This document shows positions 26,940 to 54,311 of a stretch of DNA of 64,000 nt, piece by piece. How positions within the stretch are numbered: position 1 is the stretch's first letter; each line of letters begins with the position of its first letter. The stretch lies in assembly GCF_023721835.1 (NCBI RefSeq), contig NZ_JAMKFE010000001.1, positions 124,001-188,000 on the forward strand. The letters are read 5' to 3'. The position numbers and the translations under genes were made by a program. The stretch is from Caldimonas mangrovi (lineage in GTDB: Bacteria; Pseudomonadota; Gammaproteobacteria; Burkholderiales; Burkholderiaceae_C). Under the pieces are notes generated by a model. It had not been told where the DNA came from. It ran no database searches and saw only the letters and a list, made by a program, of their open reading frames with translations.

Positions 26940-28946
26940 TCAAAACGGCCTGCGCTGCTGCCACCACTCCAGCACCCGTTGCACCGATTCATCGATGCTG
27001 AGCGCCGAGTTGTCGAGCGACACCGCGTCTTCGGCAGGTTTCAATGGCGCCGCACTGCGGGAACGGTCCCGGGCGTCGCGCGCTTCAAGGTCCTGCAAAA
27101 GGTCGTCAATATTAGACGAAAAGCCTTTAGAAATCAATTGCTTATGCCGGCGATCCGCGCGCGTGGCGGCACTGGCCGTCAGAAAGACCTTCAAGGCCGC
27201 GTCGGGGAAGATGACCGTACCCATGTCACGGCCATCGGCCACCAGACCCGGCAGGCGACGGAAGGCGAGCTGCAGGTCGCGCAACGCGGCGCGCACGCCG
27301 GGGAGGGCGGAAATCCGCGAAGCGAGTGCGCCCACTTCCTCGCGGCGCAGCTGGCGGCTGACGTTGTCGTCGCCCAGCCAGATGGCCTCGCCATCGAATC
27401 GCAGCGGCAGCTTCGCGGCCAGGGCCGACAGCGCGGCCTCGTCATCGGCCGGGACACCCGCCTGCAGTGCGGCCAGGGCCGTGGCGCGGTACAACGCGCC
27501 GGAGTCGAGCAGGTGGTAGCCCAGCCCTCGCGCCACTTCGCTCGCCAGCGTGCCTTTGCCCGAAGCGGTGGGGCCGTCGATGGTGATGACCGGCACGTCG
27601 GCCGACTCGGCGCGAACGGCCCCGAACAGCGTTTCGAAGTAGTCCGGGAAGGTTTTCGCGACGCATTTCGGGTCGAGGATGCGCACCGGCACCGCGGGTT
27701 GCGCGCCGGCCAGCCCGTTGAAGGCCGCCAGCGAAAAGCACATCGCGACCCGGTGGTCGTCGTAGGTATGGATGGCGGCCGCGCGCCATCGCGTGAGCGG
27801 CTGCACCTCGATGAAATCAGGGCCTTCGGTGACGGTCGCGCCCAGCTTGCGCAGCTCGGCCGCCATCGCCGCGATGCGATCGGTTTCCTTCACCCGCCAG
27901 CTGGCAACGTTGCGCAGCCGGGTCGGGCCGCTGGCGTACAAGGCCATCACGGCCAGCGTCATGGCCGCGTCCGGGATATGGTTGCAGTCGAGATCCAACG
28001 GGCGCAGCGGCCAGGTGCCGCGGCTGACCTCGAGCCAGTTGGGGCCTTGCTGCACGCGCGCGCCCATCGCCTGGGCGGCCTCGACGAAGCGGATGTCGCC
28101 CTGGATCGACTCGGCACCGACGCCTTCGATGCGCAGCGGCGCCGACGCATCGGCCGCCAGGGCCCCGAGCGCGATGAAGTAGGACGCCGACGAGGCGTCG
28201 CCCTCGACGTGGATATTGCCGGGCGAACGGTAGCGGCTGTTCGCGCGGATCGTGAAGCGGCTCCAGCCGTCGCTCAGGACCGCGATCCCGAAGCGGCTCA
28301 GCAGGTTCAGCGTGATCTCGATATACGGCTTCGAGATCAATTCGCCTTCCACTTCGACGACGACGTCGCCCTGGTACGACAGCAGCGGCAGCGCCAGCAG
28401 CAACGCCGTCAGGAACTGGCTCGACACGTCGCCGCGTACCCGGATCGGCGCACTGGCTCGCGGCTCGCCGCCGGCCAGCCGCAGCGGCGGGTAGCCTTCT
28501 GCGCCCAGGTAGTCGATGCGGCAACCGATGCTGCGCAGCGCAGTCACCAGGTCGCCGATGGGGCGCTCATGCATGCGCGGCACACCGCCCAGCTCGAAAC
28601 TGCCGCCCTGCAGCCCGCTCAGCAGTGCGAGCGCCGCCGCAAGCGGGCGCATCGCCGTGCCGGCATTGCCGAGGAAGAGCTTGGCCTGCAGGGTGCTCAA
28701 ACGGCCGCCCAGGCCTGTCACACGCAGCGCCGCGCCTTCCGGCTCCACGATGCAGCCCAGTTGCTGCAGCGCAGCGATCATCACCCGCGTGTCGTCGGAG
28801 TCGAGCAGGTCGTGGATCAGCGTGCTGCCCTCGCTCAGGCCGGCCAGCAACAGCACCCGGTTGGAAATGCTCTTCGAGCCGGGCAGGCGAACGGTGCCGG
28901 CGGCCGAGCGCAGCGGCGGGAGATCGAGAAACTCGGTGGCGTACAT
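26940..28946 (-). CDS. aroA: Bifunctional EPSP synthase / cytidylate kinase (AroA-Cmk fusion)
   Basis: One 668-aa polypeptide carries two enzymes. Residues 1 to about 440 are 3-phosphoshikimate 1-carboxyvinyltransferase of the shikimate pathway: [20 protein letters not shown] near 20-40, then [14 protein letters not shown] and the EGDASSASY stretch. From about 453 a P-loop GPTASGKGT begins a complete CMP kinase with the [14 protein letters not shown] motif and a [12 protein letters not shown] lid. The reading frame is continuous with a short linker. These genes are adjacent but separate in many proteobacteria. It lies between tyrA and rpsA, matching the aroA-cmk-rpsA order of other genomes. 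Confidence 0.95.
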
Positions 28947-45440: not shown

Positions 45441-45920
45441 CTAGGCGAGAAAGCGATCGAGCAGTCGGCGGCTGGTGCGGTCGAGCGCGTGCAGGTCGGG
45501 CACCAGGAAGTGCACGCCCTGGGCGTCGGCGATGAGCAGCTTGCCGTGTGGCAGCCGGCGGATGTCTTCTTCGCCTTTCAGCACCAGCTGGGTCGGGCCC
45601 CGGTCGGTGTCGACGTCCCAGGTGCTCGGCGTCGAGAAGCTCGACACGCTGCGCAGCCTGACGATCTGCGGGACGAATTCGCGCGTCTGCAGTGCTTCAC
45701 GCAGCAGCGCCTGCTGCTGCGCGGGCAGGTCCTCAAGCCGGTCGATCCATGCCAGCTCGTGGCCGTCGGTACCCACCAGGGCAACGCCTTCGTCCGGTGC
45801 AGCGATCGGGAACGCGCGGACCGGCGTGACGCCGTTATGGCGCTCACCATCGCCAGTGACGAGGACAAGCTTGCCGTAGGCATTGCGTTCGACGATGAAG
45901 GGAAGGGTCGGCAGGCTCAT
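45441..45920 (-). CDS. DUF1854 family protein, cyanophycin-locus associated
   Basis: Soluble protein of 159 aa and unknown biochemical role. The family is recurrently found beside cphA genes and an ABC exporter in betaproteobacteria. Visible segments are PVRAFPIAAPDEGVALVGTDGHEL, an acidic region, then the basic RRLPHGKLLIADAQGVHFLVPD near the C-terminus. There is no signal peptide or membrane segment. Its ATG overlaps the ABC gene stop by 4 nt, so the two proteins are probably made together. The link to cyanophycin is by genomic association, not demonstrated mechanism. Confidence 0.87.
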   Translation of the reverse strand: MSLPTLPFIVERNAYGKLVLVTGDGERHNGVTPVRAFPIAAPDEGVALVGTDGHELAWIDRLEDLPAQQQALLREALQTREFVPQIVRLRSVSSFSTPSTWDVDTDRGPTQLVLKGEEDIRRLPHGKLLIADAQGVHFLVPDLHALDRTSRRLLDRFLA

Positions 45921-48244
45921 GCGGCGTTGCGCTCCGTGTTGTCGCTCCAGTCCTCGCTCGCTTCGGCGTTGCGCGCCTGCGCTTCGTAGAGTCGCCAGTA
46001 CGCGCCTTCGCGTGCCATCAGCGCGTCGTGCGGGCCGACCTCGACGATCTGGCCGCGGTCCATGACGACCAGGCGGTCGGCCTGGCGCAATGTGCTCAGG
46101 CGGTGCGCGATCGCGATCGTCGTGCGGCCGCGCACGAGGTTGTCGAGCGCTCTCTGAATTTCCTTCTCGGTCTCGGTGTCGACCGACGAGGTGGCCTCGT
46201 CGAGGATCAGGATGCATGGGTCGATCAACAACGCGCGCGCGATCGAGATGCGCTGACGCTCGCCACCGGACAGGCCTTGTCCGCGTTCGCCCACCAGCGA
46301 GTCGTAGCCATGCGGCAGGCGCAGGATGAATTCGTGCGCATGCGCGGCACGTGCTGCCGCGGCGATCTCTGCGCGTGTCGCGTCCGGCTTGCCGTAAGCG
46401 ATGTTCTCGGCGATGGTGCCGAAGAACAGGAAGGGCTCCTGCAGCACCAGGCCGATGTGGCGACGGTATTCGGCCACCGGCAGCGAGCGGATGTCGACGC
46501 CGTCGATGCGGATGGAGCCTTCGCTGACGTCGTAGAAGCGGCAGATCAGGTTGACCAGCGTGCTCTTGCCCGAGCCGCTGTGACCGACCAGGCCGATCAT
46601 CTCGCCTGGCGCGATGTTGAGGTCCAGCCCGCGAATCACCGAGCGGTTGCCGTAGCGGAAGCCGACGTCGCGGATCTCGATGCGACCCTGTACCTTGCCC
46701 AGGTGTATCGGCTGGGTGGGCTCCGGCACGCTGGAGACATGGTCGAGGATGTCGAAGATGCGCTTGGCGCCGGCGGCCGCCTTCTGGGTGACCGACACGA
46801 TACGGCTCATCGAATCGAGCCGGGTGTAGAAGCGGCTGATGTAGGCGAGGAACGCGGTCAGCACACCGACCGTGATGTCGCCACGCGAGACCTGCCAGAT
46901 GCCGAACGCCCACACCACCAGCAGGCCGATCTCGGTCAGCAGCGAGACGGTGGGCGAGAACAGCGACCACACCTTGTTGAGCTTGTCGTTGACGGCCAGG
47001 TTGTGGCGGTTCGCCTCGTGGAACCGGTTCGCTTCGCGCTTTTCCTGGGCAAAGGCCTTGACGACGCGAATGCCCGGGATGGTGTCGGCCAGCACGTTGG
47101 TGACTTCCGACCACACCCGGTCGATCTTCTCGAACCCGGTGCGCAGCCGGTCGCGCACGACGTGGATCAGCCAGGCGATGAAAGGCAGCGGCAGCAGCGT
47201 GACCAGCGCGAGCCATGGGTTGATCGAAAACAGGATGGCCGCGGTCATCACGATCATCAGCACATCGGTCGCGAAGTCGAGCAGGTGCAGCGACAGGAAT
47301 ACGCAGATGCGGTCGGTTTCGCTGCCGATGCGTGCCATCAAATCGCCGGTGCGCTTGCCGCCGAAGTATTCGAGCGAGAGTTTCAGCAAGTGCTCGTAGG
47401 TCGTGGTGCGCAGGTCGGCGCCGATGCGCTCGCTCACCAGCGCCAGGATGTAAGTGCGCGCCCAGCCCAGGCTCCAGGCGACGAGGGCCGCTGCCAGCAG
47501 GCCCCCCAGGTACAGCAGCACCTGCGCAGGGTCGATCGGCGTGCCGTTCTGATAGGGAATCAGCACGTCGTCCATCAGCGGCATCGTCAGATAGGGCGGC
47601 ACCAGCGTGGCGGCGGTGGAGCCGAGCGTCAGCCCGAAGCCGGCGAGCAGCCGGCCGCGATACGGCTTCGCGAAACGCCACAGGCGCAGCAGCGTCCAGG
47701 TGGACACTGGCGCTTCGGGCTCGCCGTCGCAGACTGTGCAGTCTTCCTGGTCGGGCTCTACGGGCGCTTGGCAGCGCTCGCACGGCCGTGGCGCGGGCGG
47801 CAGGACCGGCTGGCCGAGTCGCAGGGCCTCGAGCACCTCGTCGAACCGGTCGATCAGTCGCTGTGCGGCCGCATGGCGCTGCAGCTTGTAGCGCCAACAG
47901 GCCAGCAGGGCGTCCTCGTCGGCGAGTTCCAGCGTGCCGATGCCGGCATGGTCGTGGTGGGCCAGTTTCAGGCCGAGCCGCAGTGGCCATGCACGCCAGG
48001 AAGCGTCGCCGATCAGCGACAGCATCCGGCGATCGGTGAGCACCACGACACCAGAGGTGAAACGAAGTTGTTCGTCGAGGTCAACCTCCAGCCATGCCCG
48101 AACGTTCTCCCCTTCGGCCAGGGCGCTTTCCAGTCGGGAACGCCAGGGCCCGGCCAGCGCAAGCGAGCCGGGCGGCACGCCGCGGAGGGCGGCGTCGGGG
48201 GCGCGAGTGGCGCCGAGATCAGAAGCCGGAGGCTGGATTGTCAT
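45917..48244 (-). CDS. ABC exporter with N-terminal extension and zinc ribbon, cyanophycin-locus associated
   Basis: Half-size exporter of 775 aa. Residues 1-180 are an extension: an unknown alpha/beta domain (about 30-140, with FTSGVVVLTDRRMLSL), then a four-Cys ribbon with Cys155, Cys158, Cys169 and Cys172. Residues about 190-490 are a six-helix transmembrane domain. The nucleotide-binding domain has Walker A GHSGSGKST (554-562), signature LSGGE (658-662) and Walker B ILILDEATSS (about 678-687), all intact. It presumably works as a homodimer. It is divergent from cphA-like genes across 209 bp and coupled to DUF1854. The substrate is unknown; no cyanophycinase is in the window. Confidence 0.9.
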   Translation of the reverse strand: MTIQPPASDLGATRAPDAALRGVPPGSLALAGPWRSRLESALAEGENVRAWLEVDLDEQLRFTSGVVVLTDRRMLSLIGDASWRAWPLRLGLKLAHHDHAGIGTLELADEDALLACWRYKLQRHAAAQRLIDRFDEVLEALRLGQPVLPPAPRPCERCQAPVEPDQEDCTVCDGEPEAPVSTWTLLRLWRFAKPYRGRLLAGFGLTLGSTAATLVPPYLTMPLMDDVLIPYQNGTPIDPAQVLLYLGGLLAAALVAWSLGWARTYILALVSERIGADLRTTTYEHLLKLSLEYFGGKRTGDLMARIGSETDRICVFLSLHLLDFATDVLMIVMTAAILFSINPWLALVTLLPLPFIAWLIHVVRDRLRTGFEKIDRVWSEVTNVLADTIPGIRVVKAFAQEKREANRFHEANRHNLAVNDKLNKVWSLFSPTVSLLTEIGLLVVWAFGIWQVSRGDITVGVLTAFLAYISRFYTRLDSMSRIVSVTQKAAAGAKRIFDILDHVSSVPEPTQPIHLGKVQGRIEIRDVGFRYGNRSVIRGLDLNIAPGEMIGLVGHSGSGKSTLVNLICRFYDVSEGSIRIDGVDIRSLPVAEYRRHIGLVLQEPFLFFGTIAENIAYGKPDATRAEIAAAARAAHAHEFILRLPHGYDSLVGERGQGLSGGERQRISIARALLIDPCILILDEATSSVDTETEKEIQRALDNLVRGRTTIAIAHRLSTLRQADRLVVMDRGQIVEVGPHDALMAREGAYWRLYEAQARNAEASEDWSDNTERNAA

Positions 48245-48453: not shown

Positions 48454-50661
48454 ATGAAAGACATTCGTCTGTTACGCGTCGCCTATCTCGACGGCCCGAG
48501 CCTCTGGACCTACCGCCCCGTCATCGAGGCCTGGGTCGACATCGGCGAGCTGGAGGACTGCCCGTCCAACACGATGCCCGGGTTTGCCCAGCGGCTGGAA
48601 GCCTGGCTGCCGTCTCTGATCGAGCACCGCTGCGGCATCGGTGAGCGCGGTGGCTTCCTGCAACGGCTGCGCGAAGGCACCTGGCCGGCGCACATTCTCG
48701 AACATGTCGCGATCGAGCTGCAGAACCTGGCCGGCTCGCAGGCCGGCTTCGGCAAGGCGCGGCAGACCCCGGTGCGCGGCATCTACAAGGTGGCGTTCAG
48801 GTCACGCAACGAGCAGGTCGGCCGCGCCTGCCTCGAAGCGGCGCGCGAGCTCGTGCTGGCGGCCATGGAAGATCGCCCGTACGACGTGCCGGCCACCGTG
48901 GCAAGGTTGCGTGCGATGGTCGACGCGCTGTGCCTCGGGCCCAGCACCGCGTGCATCGTCGACGCGGCTGGCGAGCGCGGCATACCCGCCATCCGGCTGA
49001 CCGACGGCAACCTCGTGCAACTCGGCCACGGCGCACGCCAGCGCCGCATCTGGACGGCCGAGACCGACCGCACCAGCGCGATCGCCGAGAGCGTCTCCAG
49101 CGACAAGGACCTGACCAAGAGCCTGCTGCAGTCGTGCGGCGTACCGGTGCCGGAAGGGCGCGTGGTCACCAGCGCCGAAGACGCCTGGGAGGCGGCGCAG
49201 GACATCGGTCTGCCGGTGGTGGTGAAGCCCTCGGATGCCAACCACGGGCGCGGCGTGTCCATCGAACTCTCGAGCCGCGACGACGTCGAGGCCGCCTACC
49301 ACCTGGCCGACCAGGAAGGCAGCGAAGTGATCGTCGAGCGCTTCGTGCGCGGCAACGAGCACCGCCTGCTGGTGGTCGGCGGGCGCGTCGTCGCAGCTGC
49401 GCGAGGCGAGACCGCGTCGGTCGTCGGCGATGGCCGCTCGACGGTGGCGGAGTTGATCGACAGCCAGCTCAACACCGACCCGCGCCGCGGTTTGACCGAA
49501 GACTTCCCGCTCAACAAGATCCTGCTGTCGGAAGACCCGGCCGTCGGTCTCGAACTCGCCCGCCAGCAGCTGGCTCCCCAGTCGGTGCCGGCCGAAGGCC
49601 GGCGCGTGCTGATCCAGCGCAACGGCAACGTGGCGTTCGACGAAACCGACGAGGTGCACCCGGACGTGGCCGCCGCCGTGTCGCTGGCAGCGCGCGTGGT
49701 CGGGCTTGACATCGCCGGCGTCGACGTGGTGGCCGAGGACATCTCCCGGCCGCTGGCCGAGCAGCAAGGGGCGGTGGTGGAGGTCAATGCCGGCCCGGGC
49801 CTGCTGATGCATCTGAAGCCGGCCAACGGCCGCGGTCGCCCGGTCGGCCGGGCCATCGCCGACCATCTGTTCGGCGAACACGAGACGGGACGCATCCCGC
49901 TGGTGGGCGTGACGGGCAGTGCCGGCACCAGCCTCATTGCACGGCTGGTGGCGTGGATCCAGCAGTTGCAGGGGCGGCGCGTCGGGTTGGCGTGCACCGA
50001 CGGGCTGTTCCTCGGCAAGCGGCGTGTCGATGGCGCTGCCTGCGCGACCTGGCATGCCGGCCGCCTGCTGCTGATGAACCGGACCGTCGAGGCCGCGGTG
50101 ATCGAAAACGGCGCCGAACAGATCCTGCGTCACGGCCTGGCGTACGACCGCTGCCAGGTCGGCGTGGTGACCGGTGTGGGCGGGGTGGAGGGCCTGCGCG
50201 AGTTCTACATCGACGAACCGCGGCAGGTCTACAACGTGTTGCGCACGCAGGTCGACGTCGTGCTGCCCGATGGCGCTGCCGTGCTGAACGCGGCCGATCC
50301 CCTGGTGGTCGAGATGGCGTCGCTGTGCGACGGCGAGGTGCTGTTCTACGGCATCGACCCGCAGTTGCCGGCCATCGTCGAGCACCGCCAGCAAGGCGGC
50401 CGTGCCGTGTTCATGCGTGATGGCCTGCTGGTGCTGGCGACCGGGTCGGGCGAGCAGCCGCTGGCCGCGTCGGCCGAGGTACCCCTGCTGCGCAGTGCGC
50501 AGACGACCATCGAGCCCGAAAGCGTGCTGGCGGCCGCGGCTGCCGGCTGCGCGCTCGGCCTGCCGCCCGAGTTGGTCCGCATCGGACTGCAGACCTTCGA
50601 GCCCCGGCAGGCGCTCGCGGGCGACCCCGGCGCATACGGCCGTCAGGCCCAGACGCTGTGA
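48454..50661 (+). CDS. Cyanophycin synthetase-like protein with degenerate Mur-ligase domain (CphA2/CphA'-type)
   Basis: Paralogue of CphA, 735 aa. The N-domain keeps a metallopeptidase-like motif (His80, Glu83, His84, Glu88 in AHILEHVAIELQ). The ATP-grasp domain (about 215-470) is intact in outline: VVKPSDANHGRGVSIEL, VERFVRGNEHRLLVV, VEVNAGPGLLMHL. In the Mur-like domain the P-loop reads GSAGTS (488-493), so the ATP-binding Lys is replaced by Thr492. The C-terminal Mur lobe with the DYxHNP and GDRRDE motifs is absent. It should therefore do only ATP-grasp chemistry, and possibly trim polymer through the N-domain. It starts at ATG 48454 without a clear ribosome site and ends 26 nt before cphA. 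Confidence 0.88.
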   Translation: MKDIRLLRVAYLDGPSLWTYRPVIEAWVDIGELEDCPSNTMPGFAQRLEAWLPSLIEHRCGIGERGGFLQRLREGTWPAHILEHVAIELQNLAGSQAGFGKARQTPVRGIYKVAFRSRNEQVGRACLEAARELVLAAMEDRPYDVPATVARLRAMVDALCLGPSTACIVDAAGERGIPAIRLTDGNLVQLGHGARQRRIWTAETDRTSAIAESVSSDKDLTKSLLQSCGVPVPEGRVVTSAEDAWEAAQDIGLPVVVKPSDANHGRGVSIELSSRDDVEAAYHLADQEGSEVIVERFVRGNEHRLLVVGGRVVAAARGETASVVGDGRSTVAELIDSQLNTDPRRGLTEDFPLNKILLSEDPAVGLELARQQLAPQSVPAEGRRVLIQRNGNVAFDETDEVHPDVAAAVSLAARVVGLDIAGVDVVAEDISRPLAEQQGAVVEVNAGPGLLMHLKPANGRGRPVGRAIADHLFGEHETGRIPLVGVTGSAGTSLIARLVAWIQQLQGRRVGLACTDGLFLGKRRVDGAACATWHAGRLLLMNRTVEAAVIENGAEQILRHGLAYDRCQVGVVTGVGGVEGLREFYIDEPRQVYNVLRTQVDVVLPDGAAVLNAADPLVVEMASLCDGEVLFYGIDPQLPAIVEHRQQGGRAVFMRDGLLVLATGSGEQPLAASAEVPLLRSAQTTIEPESVLAAAAAGCALGLPPELVRIGLQTFEPRQALAGDPGAYGRQAQTL

Positions 50662-50687
50662 CATCTTCCCCATCGAAAGAACGATCC

Positions 50688-53294
50688 ATGAAAGTCTCTC
50701 GCGTGCGCGCGCTGCGCGGCCCCAATCTGTGGAGCCGCCGCACCGCGATCGAAGCGGTGGTCCATTGCAGCGAGACCGAGCGCTCGCTCGACCGGCTGCC
50801 CGGTTTCGAGTTGCGCCTGCGTTCCCGCCTGCCGCAAATCGGCGCGCTGCATACCGCGGGACAGGCCGGGCCGACGTCGATGGCTCACGCACTGGAGCGC
50901 GCGACGCTGGCTCTGCAGGCGCAGGCAGGCTGCCCGGTCAGCTTCAGCCGCACCACCGAAACCGTCGAGTGCGGGACCTACCAGGTGGTGATCGAGTACA
51001 CCGAAGAGGCGGTCGGCCGCCTGGCGTTCGAGATGGCCGAGCTGTTGTGCCAGGCAGCGCTGGACGACCTGCCGTTCGACCTGGCGGCGGCCTCGGCGCG
51101 CCTGAGCGAACTGGACGAGGACGAGCGCCTCGGCCCGAGCACCGGCGCCATCGTGCAGGCCGCGGTCGCGCGCGGGATCCCGTATCGGCGCCTCACCCAG
51201 GGCAGCCTGGTGCAGTTCGGCTGGGGCAGCCGCCAGCGCCGCATCCAGGCGGCCGAGATGGACCGCACCAGCGCCATCGCCGAGTCGATTGCGCAGGACA
51301 AGGAATTGACCAAGAAGCTGCTGCATGCCGCCGGCGTGCCGGTACCGCTGGGCCGCCCGGTGAGCGACCTCGATGACGCCTGGGCTGCAGCTTGCGAGAT
51401 CGGCCTGCCGGTGGTCGTGAAGCCACGTGACGGCAACCAGGGCAAGGGCGTGACGGTGAACATCGAGACGCGAGATCACCTGGCGATCGCCTATGCCGCG
51501 GCGTACGAGATCAGTTCCGACGTGATGGTCGAGCGCTACATTCCGGGGCACGACTTCCGCCTGCTGGTGGTCGGCGACCGGCTGGTCGCCGCAGCGCGAC
51601 GCGACCCGCCGCATGTCGTCGGTGACGGCCAGCACACCATCCGCGAACTGGTCGACCGGGTCAATGCCGACCCGCGGCGCGGCGATGGCCATGGAACCGC
51701 CTTGACGAAGATGCGCTTCGACGAGATCGCCCTGGCACGGCTCGCGGTACAGGGCTACGGCGCCGACTCGGTGCCGCCGCAAGGTCAGCGTGTGGTGCTG
51801 CGCAACAACGCGAACCTCAGCACCGGCGGCACGGCCACCGACGTCACCGACGACGTGCACCCCGAGGTCGCGGAGCGCGCCGTCGAGGCTGCCCGCACGA
51901 TCGGGCTGGACATCTGCGGCGTCGACATCGTCTGTGAAACGGTGCTGCGCCCGCTCGAAGAGCAGGGCGGCGGCATCGTCGAGGTCAACGCGGCACCCGG
52001 CTTGCGCATGCACCTGTCGCCGTCCTATGGCAGGGGGCGCGCGGTCGGCGAGGCGATCGTCGACGACATGTTCGCGTCCGGCGAGGACGGTCGCATCCCC
52101 GTGGTGGCGGTCACTGGCACCAACGGCAAGACAACCACCGTGCGGCTGATCTCCCACATCCTCGCAGTGCGGGGCCTGCGCGTGGGCATGACCAACACCG
52201 ACGGCGTCTATGTCGCCGGGCGGCGCATCGACACCGGTGATTGCAGCGGCCCCCGCAGCGCGCGCAACGTGCTGATGCATCCCGACGTCGATGCCGCCGT
52301 GTTCGAGACCGCGCGCGGCGGCATCCTGCGCGAGGGTCTGGCCTTCGACCGCTGCCAGGTGGCAGTGGTGACCAACATCGGCGCAGGCGATCATCTCGGG
52401 CTCAACTACATCACCACGGCCGAAGACCTGGGGGTGCTCAAGCGCGTGATCGTGCAGAACGTGGCCGCGACAGGCACAGCGGTGCTGAACGCAGCCGACC
52501 CGATCGTCGCGGCGATGGCTCGTGAATGCCCGGGTTCAGTGACCTTCTTCGCGGCCGATCGCCATCTGCCGGTAATGGCCGCGCACCGCGCGAAGGGCGG
52601 ACGCGTGGTGTACGTGGACCGGGGGGCCATCGTCGCCGAGTCGGGCAACGTGCAGCATCGTGTCTCGCTGTCGCAGGTGGGCCTTACGAGGGGCGGCACC
52701 ATCGGCTTCCAGGTCGACAACGCGATGGCGGCCACCGCGGCAGCCTGGGCGCTCGGCGTCGAGTGGTCGGTGATCTGCACGGCGCTCGCCGGCTTCTCGA
52801 ACGACGCCGACAATGTGCCGGGGCGTTTCAACGTGTTCGACCATCGAGGCGCGACCGTCATTGCCGACTATGGCCATAACCCGGATGCGATCCAGGCGTT
52901 GGTGCAGGCGGTGGAGGCGATGCCGGCGCGGCGGCGTTCGGTCGTGATCAGCGGGGCTGGCGACCGGCGCGACGAGGACCTGCGCCGGCAGACCGCGATC
53001 CTCGGTCAGGCCTTCGACGACGTGATCCTGTATCAGGACCAGTGCCAGCGAGGCCGCGCCGACGGCGAGGTGCTGGCGCTGCTGAGAGCGGGCCTCGAAG
53101 GGGCCCGGCGCACCAGCCGCATCGACGAGATCCACGGCGAGTTCCTGGCGATCGACACGGCGCTGGAGCGGCTGATGCCGGGCGACTTGTGCCTGGTGCT
53201 GATCGACCAGGTCGAGGAAGCGCTGGCGCATATCGCACAGCGCTGCGCCGACGCGCCCGTACCCGTCGAACTGCTGCTGGCCGAACCCGCCTGA
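50688..53294 (+). CDS. cphA: Cyanophycin synthetase
   Basis: Polymerises aspartate and arginine into multi-L-arginyl-poly-L-aspartate; 868 aa. The ATP-grasp domain, which adds Asp in studied CphA1 enzymes, has VVKPRDGNQGKGVTVNI and VEVNAAPGLRMHLSP. The Mur-ligase-like domain, which adds Arg, has P-loop GTNGKT (477-482), ETARGGILREGLAFDRC, DYGHNPDAI and GAGDRRDED, all intact. In the N-domain the region equivalent to HxxEH...E reads AHALERATLALQ: His67 and Glu70 remain, but the second His is Arg71 and the later Glu is Ala75. The N-domain hydrolase is therefore probably inactive. It follows the cphA2-like gene by 26 nt. Confidence 0.96.
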   Translation: MKVSRVRALRGPNLWSRRTAIEAVVHCSETERSLDRLPGFELRLRSRLPQIGALHTAGQAGPTSMAHALERATLALQAQAGCPVSFSRTTETVECGTYQVVIEYTEEAVGRLAFEMAELLCQAALDDLPFDLAAASARLSELDEDERLGPSTGAIVQAAVARGIPYRRLTQGSLVQFGWGSRQRRIQAAEMDRTSAIAESIAQDKELTKKLLHAAGVPVPLGRPVSDLDDAWAAACEIGLPVVVKPRDGNQGKGVTVNIETRDHLAIAYAAAYEISSDVMVERYIPGHDFRLLVVGDRLVAAARRDPPHVVGDGQHTIRELVDRVNADPRRGDGHGTALTKMRFDEIALARLAVQGYGADSVPPQGQRVVLRNNANLSTGGTATDVTDDVHPEVAERAVEAARTIGLDICGVDIVCETVLRPLEEQGGGIVEVNAAPGLRMHLSPSYGRGRAVGEAIVDDMFASGEDGRIPVVAVTGTNGKTTTVRLISHILAVRGLRVGMTNTDGVYVAGRRIDTGDCSGPRSARNVLMHPDVDAAVFETARGGILREGLAFDRCQVAVVTNIGAGDHLGLNYITTAEDLGVLKRVIVQNVAATGTAVLNAADPIVAAMARECPGSVTFFAADRHLPVMAAHRAKGGRVVYVDRGAIVAESGNVQHRVSLSQVGLTRGGTIGFQVDNAMAATAAAWALGVEWSVICTALAGFSNDADNVPGRFNVFDHRGATVIADYGHNPDAIQALVQAVEAMPARRRSVVISGAGDRRDEDLRRQTAILGQAFDDVILYQDQCQRGRADGEVLALLRAGLEGARRTSRIDEIHGEFLAIDTALERLMPGDLCLVLIDQVEEALAHIAQRCADAPVPVELLLAEPA

Positions 53295-53381: not shown

Positions 53382-54311
53382 GTGCAGCATCAAGTGCGCT
53401 CCGCGCGGCCTGCGGACTGGCCGGCCATCGAGGCCTTGTTGAAAGACTGTGCGCTCCCGGGGCAGGGCGCGCGCGAACACCTGCAGCATTTCATCGTCGC
53501 CGAAGCCGGCGGTATCCTCGGTTGTGCCGGGCTCGAGCCTTACGGTGATGACTTGTTGCTGCGCTCGGTCGGCGTGAAGCCGGCCTATCGCGGGCAGGGC
53601 CTGGGCGAAGCGCTGACCCGGCATCTGTTGGCGCAGGCCATCGCGCAGGACGGTCGGACGATGTGGCTGCGCACCGTCGATGCGGCGGGTTTCTATGCGC
53701 TGCTCGGCTTCCGCCCCAGTGCGCTCGAAGCCGTGCCGCAGGCGATGCGGGCGTCGGCCGAATTCCAGGGGGCCTGTCCGGACAGCAGCACGACGATGCG
53801 GCTCGACCTGCACGCCGGCGTGACGGTCCGTCCGGCGCGCGAAACCGACATGCCGGCGGTGCTCGACATCTACAACCACGAGGTGCGCACCAGCACCGCC
53901 ACCTACCAGTACGCCGAACGCCGGCTCGAGGAACAGGTGGAGCAGTGGGCGCTCAAGCAGCGCGACGGGCACGGGTTTTTCGTCGGTGTCTCGAAACAGG
54001 GCCGTGTGATCGGCTATTCGAGCTACGGGCTGTTCCGGCCGCGTGAAGGCTGGCGCTTCGCTTGCGAGCATTCGGTCTACCTGCACGCCGACTGGCGTGG
54101 CCGCGGCGTCGGCAAGCTGCTGATGCCGCCGGTGATGGCGCATGCCCGAAAACGCGGCTTCCACACGATGGTGGGGGTGGTCGACGCGGCCAACGCCGCG
54201 TCGGTCCGCCTGCACGAGGCGATGGGCTTCAAGGTGGCAGGTGTCGTGCGCGAAGGCGGCTACAAGTTCGATCGCTGGCTCGACGTGGCGTTCGTGCAGG
54301 CGATGCTGTAG
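53382..54311 (+). CDS. Tandem GNAT protein: ArsN2-like plus phosphinothricin-type acetyltransferase
   Basis: Two acetyltransferase domains in one 309-aa chain. The N-terminal half (about 4-135) is ArsN2-like, with SVGVKPAYRGQGLGEALTRHLL as its acetyl-CoA loop. The C-terminal half (about 147-309) resembles phosphinothricin/methionine-sulfoximine N-acetyltransferases: DIYNHEVRTSTATYQ, VYLHADWRGRGVGKLLM, and the VGVVDAANAASVRLHEAMGF motif. The start is GTG with AAGGAG 6 nt upstream. ArsN acts on arsenical antibiotics and related glutamate analogues, so both halves may detoxify amino-acid analogues; that is inference. The 87 bp after cphA hold nothing else. Confidence 0.85.
   Translation: MQHQVRSARPADWPAIEALLKDCALPGQGAREHLQHFIVAEAGGILGCAGLEPYGDDLLLRSVGVKPAYRGQGLGEALTRHLLAQAIAQDGRTMWLRTVDAAGFYALLGFRPSALEAVPQAMRASAEFQGACPDSSTTMRLDLHAGVTVRPARETDMPAVLDIYNHEVRTSTATYQYAERRLEEQVEQWALKQRDGHGFFVGVSKQGRVIGYSSYGLFRPREGWRFACEHSVYLHADWRGRGVGKLLMPPVMAHARKRGFHTMVGVVDAANAASVRLHEAMGFKVAGVVREGGYKFDRWLDVAFVQAML

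Follow-up and report, generated by a model that had tools for sequence, protein, structure and literature searches.

Two cyanophycin synthetase (CphA) homologues are encoded side by side in the window, the 64 000 nucleotide stretch of the Caldimonas mangrovi genome analysed here. Judged by their residues, they appear to have divided the active sites of one enzyme between them: protein A (CphA′) keeps only the polymer-cutting site, and protein B only the two building sites. The best explanation, to which we give a probability of about 0.6, is that A is a polymerization-dead endo-cyanophycinase that serves the synthetase B in trans, following duplication and subfunctionalization of CphA1. The A/B pair is present across many bacteria of one large group, which mostly lack the usual cyanophycin-degrading enzyme.

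The open reading frame of A (48454..50661, forward strand) encodes a short homologue of 735 aa. It is followed on the same strand by that of B (50688..53294), a full-length synthetase of 868 aa when read from the ATG at 50688; an in-frame GTG at 50658 is also a possible start. Against the NCBIfam equivalog TIGR02068 (CphA1), with a curated cut-off of 850 bits, B scores 982 bits and A falls below the threshold at 715 bits. Both proteins pass the broader subfamily PRK14016 (A with 1043.9 bits, cut-off 877). The AlphaFold2 model of A has a mean pLDDT of 90.5, and its best PDB match is 7txv, the E82Q variant of SuCphA1 with cyanophycin (TMq 0.87).

A search with A in 399 genomes of the order Burkholderiales matched 147, of which 132 had two matches. 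The 131 two-match genomes other than that of the window gave 113 complete pairs for analysis, four fragmentary loci (L061, L063, L078 and L079) having been dropped from 117. L087, where B is broken into two frames, was left out of the comparisons of identity, strand and gap, which cover 112 pairs. At L137 and L160, A occurs alone. The searches of order, class and phylum scored two candidates per genome, so extra CphA copies can be missed. The frame of A is open throughout the 113 pairs; A and B lie on the same strand in 112/112, with a median gap of about 30 nt by aligned starts.

In the N-domain, A is intact and B is not. The function of the N-domain HxxEH motif is taken from published work (PMC9262961). 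The first-pass annotation, made from the sequence of the window, had listed His80, Glu83, His84 and Glu88 in A, and Arg71 and Ala75 in the corresponding motif of B. All are present in the translations. The residues of A (H80-x-x-E83-H84 and E88, 48691..48717) correspond to SuCphA1 H79, E82, H83 and E87, while the dead site of B reads H67, E70, R71 and A75 (50886..50912), with the Cys loop deleted upstream. The comparison with characterized CphA1 and CphA2 proteins that the annotation had proposed maps the N-domain metal site to A. There, Cys60 (48631..48633; SuCphA1 C59) is the third metal ligand of the Cx19HxxEH motif, and His58 and Glu88 match second-shell residues of SuCphA1 (PDB 7LG5). A thus has the motif of the primer-making hydrolase, Cx19HxxEH with H57 and E87 in SuCphA1 numbering, and B does not. 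On this basis, A is a putative metal-dependent endo-cyanophycinase.

This pattern recurs in the survey. In SuCphA1 numbering, H57, C59, F67, R70, H79, E82, H83, E87 and Y110 are each found in 113/113 A proteins; the alignment columns of H57 and C59 contain no residue in any of the 113 B proteins. The full motif is therefore present in every A (113/113) and in no B (0/113). HxxEH without the Cys survives in three B proteins (L158, L162 and L164), from which the Cys-bearing loop is gone, and a His at the H83 position is found in four of the 113, including these three. For comparison, the four-residue N motif is kept in 76 of the 79 cyanobacterial CphA1s in which the N domain is covered, and lost in 3/79.

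Loss of the aspartate-recognizing half of the ATP-grasp domain in A is an addition to the first-pass account. In the cyanobacterial enzyme TeCphA1, the incoming Asp is bound by Asn394 on the Gw loop (residues 389–399) together with Arg323 and Arg458, and replacement of these residues by Ala impairs the enzyme (PMC9427784). In A of the window, R323 is replaced by Gly and R458 by Leu, and the Gw loop is five residues short, with RNGNV-----A (49618..49635) in place of NANLSTGG; the site formed by R323, N394/S396 of the loop and R458 is lost. B retains both arginines and the intact loop NANLSTGG (51807..51830). Amongst the 113 pairs, every A has lost R323 (Gly in 110) and R458 (Leu in 109) and has the loop shortened by five residues, whereas B keeps R323 in 113/113, and R458 and the loop in 112/113, with one gap. 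With these losses, the only complete known site left to A is the N-domain hydrolase, and B has the two synthetic sites. The first-pass proposal that the pair splits three activities holds as to the split, with the correction that one activity falls to A and two to B.

The other half of the ATP-grasp site, which handles ATP and the acyl phosphate, is conserved in A within the order: K261, R309, N452 and D431 in 113/113, H267 in 110/113 and E450 in 111/113. A pure hydrolase would have no use for such a half-site, and its conservation counts against the best explanation. Three A proteins from f142, a family that does not belong to the order, have lost H267; E450 is missing from two of them and N452 from one. 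The six N-site residues are nonetheless retained in all three, and the motif is absent from the corresponding B proteins. Retention of the N site by proteins that are losing ATP-grasp residues is telling, even given a single origin of the pair. In B of the window, the residue at H267 is Gln. This was rejected as a mark of a dead B, since Gln is also found here in the window genome's complete third CphA and in L332, a lone intact homologue from another class.

The Arg-adding Mur-ligase site is likewise lost from A and kept by B. As first noted, A has GSAGTS at residue 488 (49915..49932), without the P-loop Lys, and B has GTNGKT at residue 477 (52116..52133). The C-lobe motifs DYGHNP and GDRRDED (52866..52979 in B) are absent from A, as had been read from the sequence. 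A has Thr, Glu and Gly at the positions of the P-loop Lys, D585 and H586, all of which B keeps. In the survey, B retains the P-loop Lys in 111/113 (two gaps), Asp585 in 112/113 (one gap) and His586 in 111/113 (one Tyr, one gap). Loss in A is less uniform. The P-loop Lys is kept in 37/113 A proteins, and 11/113 have this Lys with Asp585/His586, the Glu and a long Mur domain and C-terminus; both counts weigh against the best explanation.

Conservation by domain differs between the two proteins. Over 112 pairs, mean pairwise identity in A is 0.65 in the N domain, 0.67 in the G domain and 0.47 in the M core, and in B it is 0.60, 0.72 and 0.69, respectively, with 0.72 in the M lid. Near-invariant positions number 32 (N), 67 (G) and 11 (M, residues 477–735) in A, and 14, 73 and 82 (M, residues 464–868) in B. 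In the otherwise relaxed M core of A, R597 and D601 (50242..50256) are invariant (113/113 each) and are both amongst the 11. They correspond to S603 and E607 of the SuCphA1 M domain, which touch polymer occupying the N site (PMC9262961). Two randomly chosen positions would both fall amongst the 11 with a probability of about 11/259 × 10/258 = 0.002, a figure that ignores other causes of conservation; the same Arg is also common in B (95/113).

The complementary losses first described for this one pair are thus borne out, and recur in the 113 further pairs. The survey of cphA pairs for co-occurring residue patterns, another first-pass suggestion, found correlated retention and loss, which is explained by common descent. 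In a 60-row tree built by a quick method from ATP-grasp and Mur-core columns, leaving out the Gw loop (14 A and 14 B proteins, some long branches), A forms one clade (SH-aLRT 100), B forms one clade (99), and A, B and L332 together form one clade (100). A 235-row FastTree with all pairs, a quicker method still, again gives one clade for A and one for B. This indicates one old split, the 113 pairs being a single event kept, and treating them as independent replicates was rejected for that reason.

Elsewhere, all three sites are kept in 26 of 27 other CphA rows from order, class and phylum. Of these 26, 25 come from one-CphA genomes and one is the window genome's own third CphA, with Gln at the H267 position. 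The row that departs is L297 (G641), which, like L076 (G136), is a divergent CphA-like protein that has no N motif and may be another kind of ligase; neither was counted as CphA1. L332 (G943) is a lone CphA, cut by a contig end, with all sites intact and, beside it, the ABC transporter and DUF1854 genes that also neighbour the A/B pair. It groups with A (support 89), as fits an unsplit relative. The simplest history is that a complete, ABC-associated CphA1 was duplicated and that complementary losses followed. Amongst 48 genomes of the class of G943, an ABC-associated CphA was found in one, G943 itself, where no cyanophycinase scored over the cut-off. A plasmid search for relatives returned 21 records, all below 60 % identity.

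In mechanistic terms, the three active sites of CphA1 would have been divided, by subfunctionalization after gene duplication, between two co-encoded proteins. B would be the polymerase, its ATP-grasp site adding Asp and its Mur-type site adding Arg, and would not make its own primers. A, still shaped like a synthetase but with the N-domain metallopeptidase-like site as its one fully conserved known catalytic site, would cut cyanophycin made by B to short chains, either in trans or as part of a mixed oligomer, and these chains would prime new ones. Cleavage by A may also serve as a route of polymer mobilization, as most of the pair genomes have no recognizable cyanophycinase. Cleavage of polymer by A, the provision of primers for B and an association of the two proteins are all putative.

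SuCphA1 (PDB 7LG5/7TXV; PMC9262961) has the same three domains, sharing Cx19HxxEH with A and the two synthetic sites with B, but in the pair the sites lie on two proteins, neither of which has all three. There is also in vitro work in which the N-dead TmCphA1 becomes primer-independent when supplied with SuCphA1 inactivated at its G and M sites (N+G−M−) or with the N domain of SuCphA1 alone (PMC9262961). The division of sites is the same, although that experiment was engineered across two species, whereas the A/B division is natural and co-encoded. By this correspondence, A probably cuts polymer for B, and the first-pass suggestion that A supplies primers gains support. A heterodimer whose N site lies on the other protomer is described as somewhat less active when primer is omitted (PMC9262961). 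On the other hand, about 17 % of CphA1s do not have the complete motif and are regarded as enzymes that depend on primer (PMC9262961), so that B may do without A.

The window genome itself has another possible source of primers. A third, complete CphA1 with all three sites is encoded apart from the pair, in a classical storage cluster (G000:C12:403979-407451; L335 2863-7512) with the order Asparaginase_2 (IaaA-like), S51 cyanophycinase, complete CphA; in this genome, primers could arise without A. One genus that has the A/B pair shows, in four genomes (L363–L366; G269, G298, G380 and G056), two further CphAs encoded next to a cyanophycinase gene. Neither of the two carries the N motif, and A is the only motif-bearing CphA found. 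It is suggestive that A may serve the two motif-less enzymes in these genomes. They were kept out of independent tests of complementarity because the N motif has also been lost in cyanobacteria, as noted above.

Upstream of A and divergent from it, on the reverse strand, are the genes of a cyanophycin metabolism-associated ABC transporter (45917..48244; 1438 bits against NCBIfam NF052233, curated cut-off 880) and a cyanophycin metabolism-associated DUF1854 protein (45441..45920; NF052234, PF08909). The transporter gene adjoins the pair in 104/113 loci and the DUF1854 gene in 102/113, and the order DUF1854-ABC-A-B is found in 92 of the 113. The transporter is beside none of 12 complete-CphA loci and none of 80 cyanobacterial loci. 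In a genome-wide search scoring 11 candidates per genome, it was found over the cut-off in 18/18 pair genomes tested, including nine in which it is not adjacent to the pair, and in 0/30 one-CphA genomes and 0/32 genomes without a CphA match.

Cyanophycinase (TIGR02069 over the cut-off) has the opposite distribution. It is found in 11 of 135 pair genomes (132 of the order and three of f142) and in all 24 one-CphA genomes tested, from a set of 30. In six of the 11, the window genome included, the gene is beside a separate CphA-like gene; the other five have weaker matches (frames of 325–437 aa), and the 9.5–11 kb fetched around them contain no CphA gene. These figures favour a rival reading, in which A is mainly the missing cyanophycinase and degrades stored polymer rather than making primers, and 'potential cphB analogs' are named as a question in PMC10687191. 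However, cleavage by the N domain, as it is known from CphA1, proceeds slowly and has tetramers as its main product (PMC9262961). In addition, A and B, on one strand and about 30 nt apart, are likely to be expressed together, an arrangement better suited to priming than to mobilization. As the main role of A, degradation of stored polymer is a possibility that we consider unlikely.

A second reading gives the transporter more weight: the pair and the ABC transporter would make a short cyanophycin-like peptide for export, not storage, with A trimming it. The near-constant association of transporter and pair, the scarcity of cyanophycinase and the resemblance of the transporter to MsbA-type exporters are all consistent with this. 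Nevertheless, the putative direction and substrate of transport are read from family resemblance, and the NCBIfam name of the transporter denotes association only. We regard export as rather improbable. A more specific version, a separate non-storage pathway, would have B polymerize, A cut the product to Asp-Arg oligomers and perhaps cap or activate their ends through its ATP half-site, and the ABC transporter export them. This would explain both the missing cyanophycinase and the strict association with the transporter, but it is slightly more doubtful than export as such.

It is quite improbable that A serves only as a structural component or as a sensor of ATP, or that its gene is decaying. 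The relaxed Mur core and an ATP half-site conserved without the Asp site speak for such a reading, but the nine N-site residues are invariant, the frames are open and the predicted fold is of high confidence. Decay to a pseudogene in particular was rejected on the N-site invariance and the fold.

The first-pass annotation had also offered a role for A in recycling or joining dipeptides, after the manner of cyanobacterial CphA2 (PDB 8FXH, 7TA5), a relative of CphA1 that joins β-Asp-Arg dipeptides by its ATP-grasp site (PMC9262961, PMC9427784). A has lost the Mur P-loop and Mur lid as CphA2 has (PMC9427784), R458 is lost in both, and ATP-grasp catalytic residues are kept. The remaining pattern is reversed: the four CphA2 sequences compared, one of which matches 8FXH at 946 bits, keep R323 and the NLS[SA]GG Gw loop and have no N motif. 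Moreover, the H267 position is Lys in these CphA2 sequences and His in A, three A proteins of f142 have lost H267, and A scores 485 bits with CphA1 and 186 bits with CphA2. A CphA2-like function is very improbable and was rejected on the residue pattern.

The pairs and their ABC transporter neighbour are already known; complementary active-site loss in paired CphAs is not reported in the open literature searched. The cphA and cphA′ genes of Ralstonia eutropha H16 we take to be very probably a pair of the same kind, and a 2013 study of them is said to have described loss of the J-loop in CphA′. Double or adjacent cphA genes have been published for β-proteobacteria (PMC5178258, PMC4786657, PMC5670224). 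They include adjacent cphA1/cphA2 in Sideroxydans (PMC5178258) and two cphA copies without cyanophycinase in Herminiimonas (PMC5670224). A Group 1 cluster consists of two cphA genes and an ABC transporter gene, without cphB, in a study that also asks about transport (PMC10687191). Set side by side by their descriptions, these published cases (PMC10687191, PMC5178258, PMC5670224) very probably represent the same gene pair and neighbourhood as A/B. Cyanophycinase is reported in 2.8 % of 903 β-proteobacterial genomes with CphA1 (PMC10206079).

If the division of labour proposed here for A and B is correct, many of the 'cyanophycin synthetases' of proteobacteria are each only half of an enzyme and call for study in pairs. 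This could explain the possibly poor performance of single copies from such organisms on their own, the primer-dependent appearance of some CphA1s, and polymer cutting in bacteria that lack cyanophycinase. The pair would also constitute a natural system of two components, in which synthesis and cleavage of the polymer could be tuned separately, and it would become testable what the ABC transporter and the DUF1854 protein, both unstudied, do.

Some further genes were observed around CphA loci and in the window. An 892-aa CphA-like protein encoded next to a cyanophycinase gene in G354 (L367 4303-6978) keeps the Mur site and has lost most ATP-grasp catalytic residues. In five of six long-flank one-CphA loci of families f42 and f23 (L177 6686-8440, L178, L179, L180 and L333), a Mur-ligase-like gene (frames of 579–720 aa) directly follows the complete CphA; Pfam was run on L177 only. 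In the window, a single reading frame on the reverse strand (26940..28943) encodes an EPSP synthase fused with a cytidylate kinase. Just downstream of B, on the forward strand, is the gene of a tandem GNAT protein (53382..54311). Its N-terminal half scores over the ArsN2 cut-off, and its C-terminal half resembles ArsN1/phosphinothricin acetyltransferase at a score below the cut-off.
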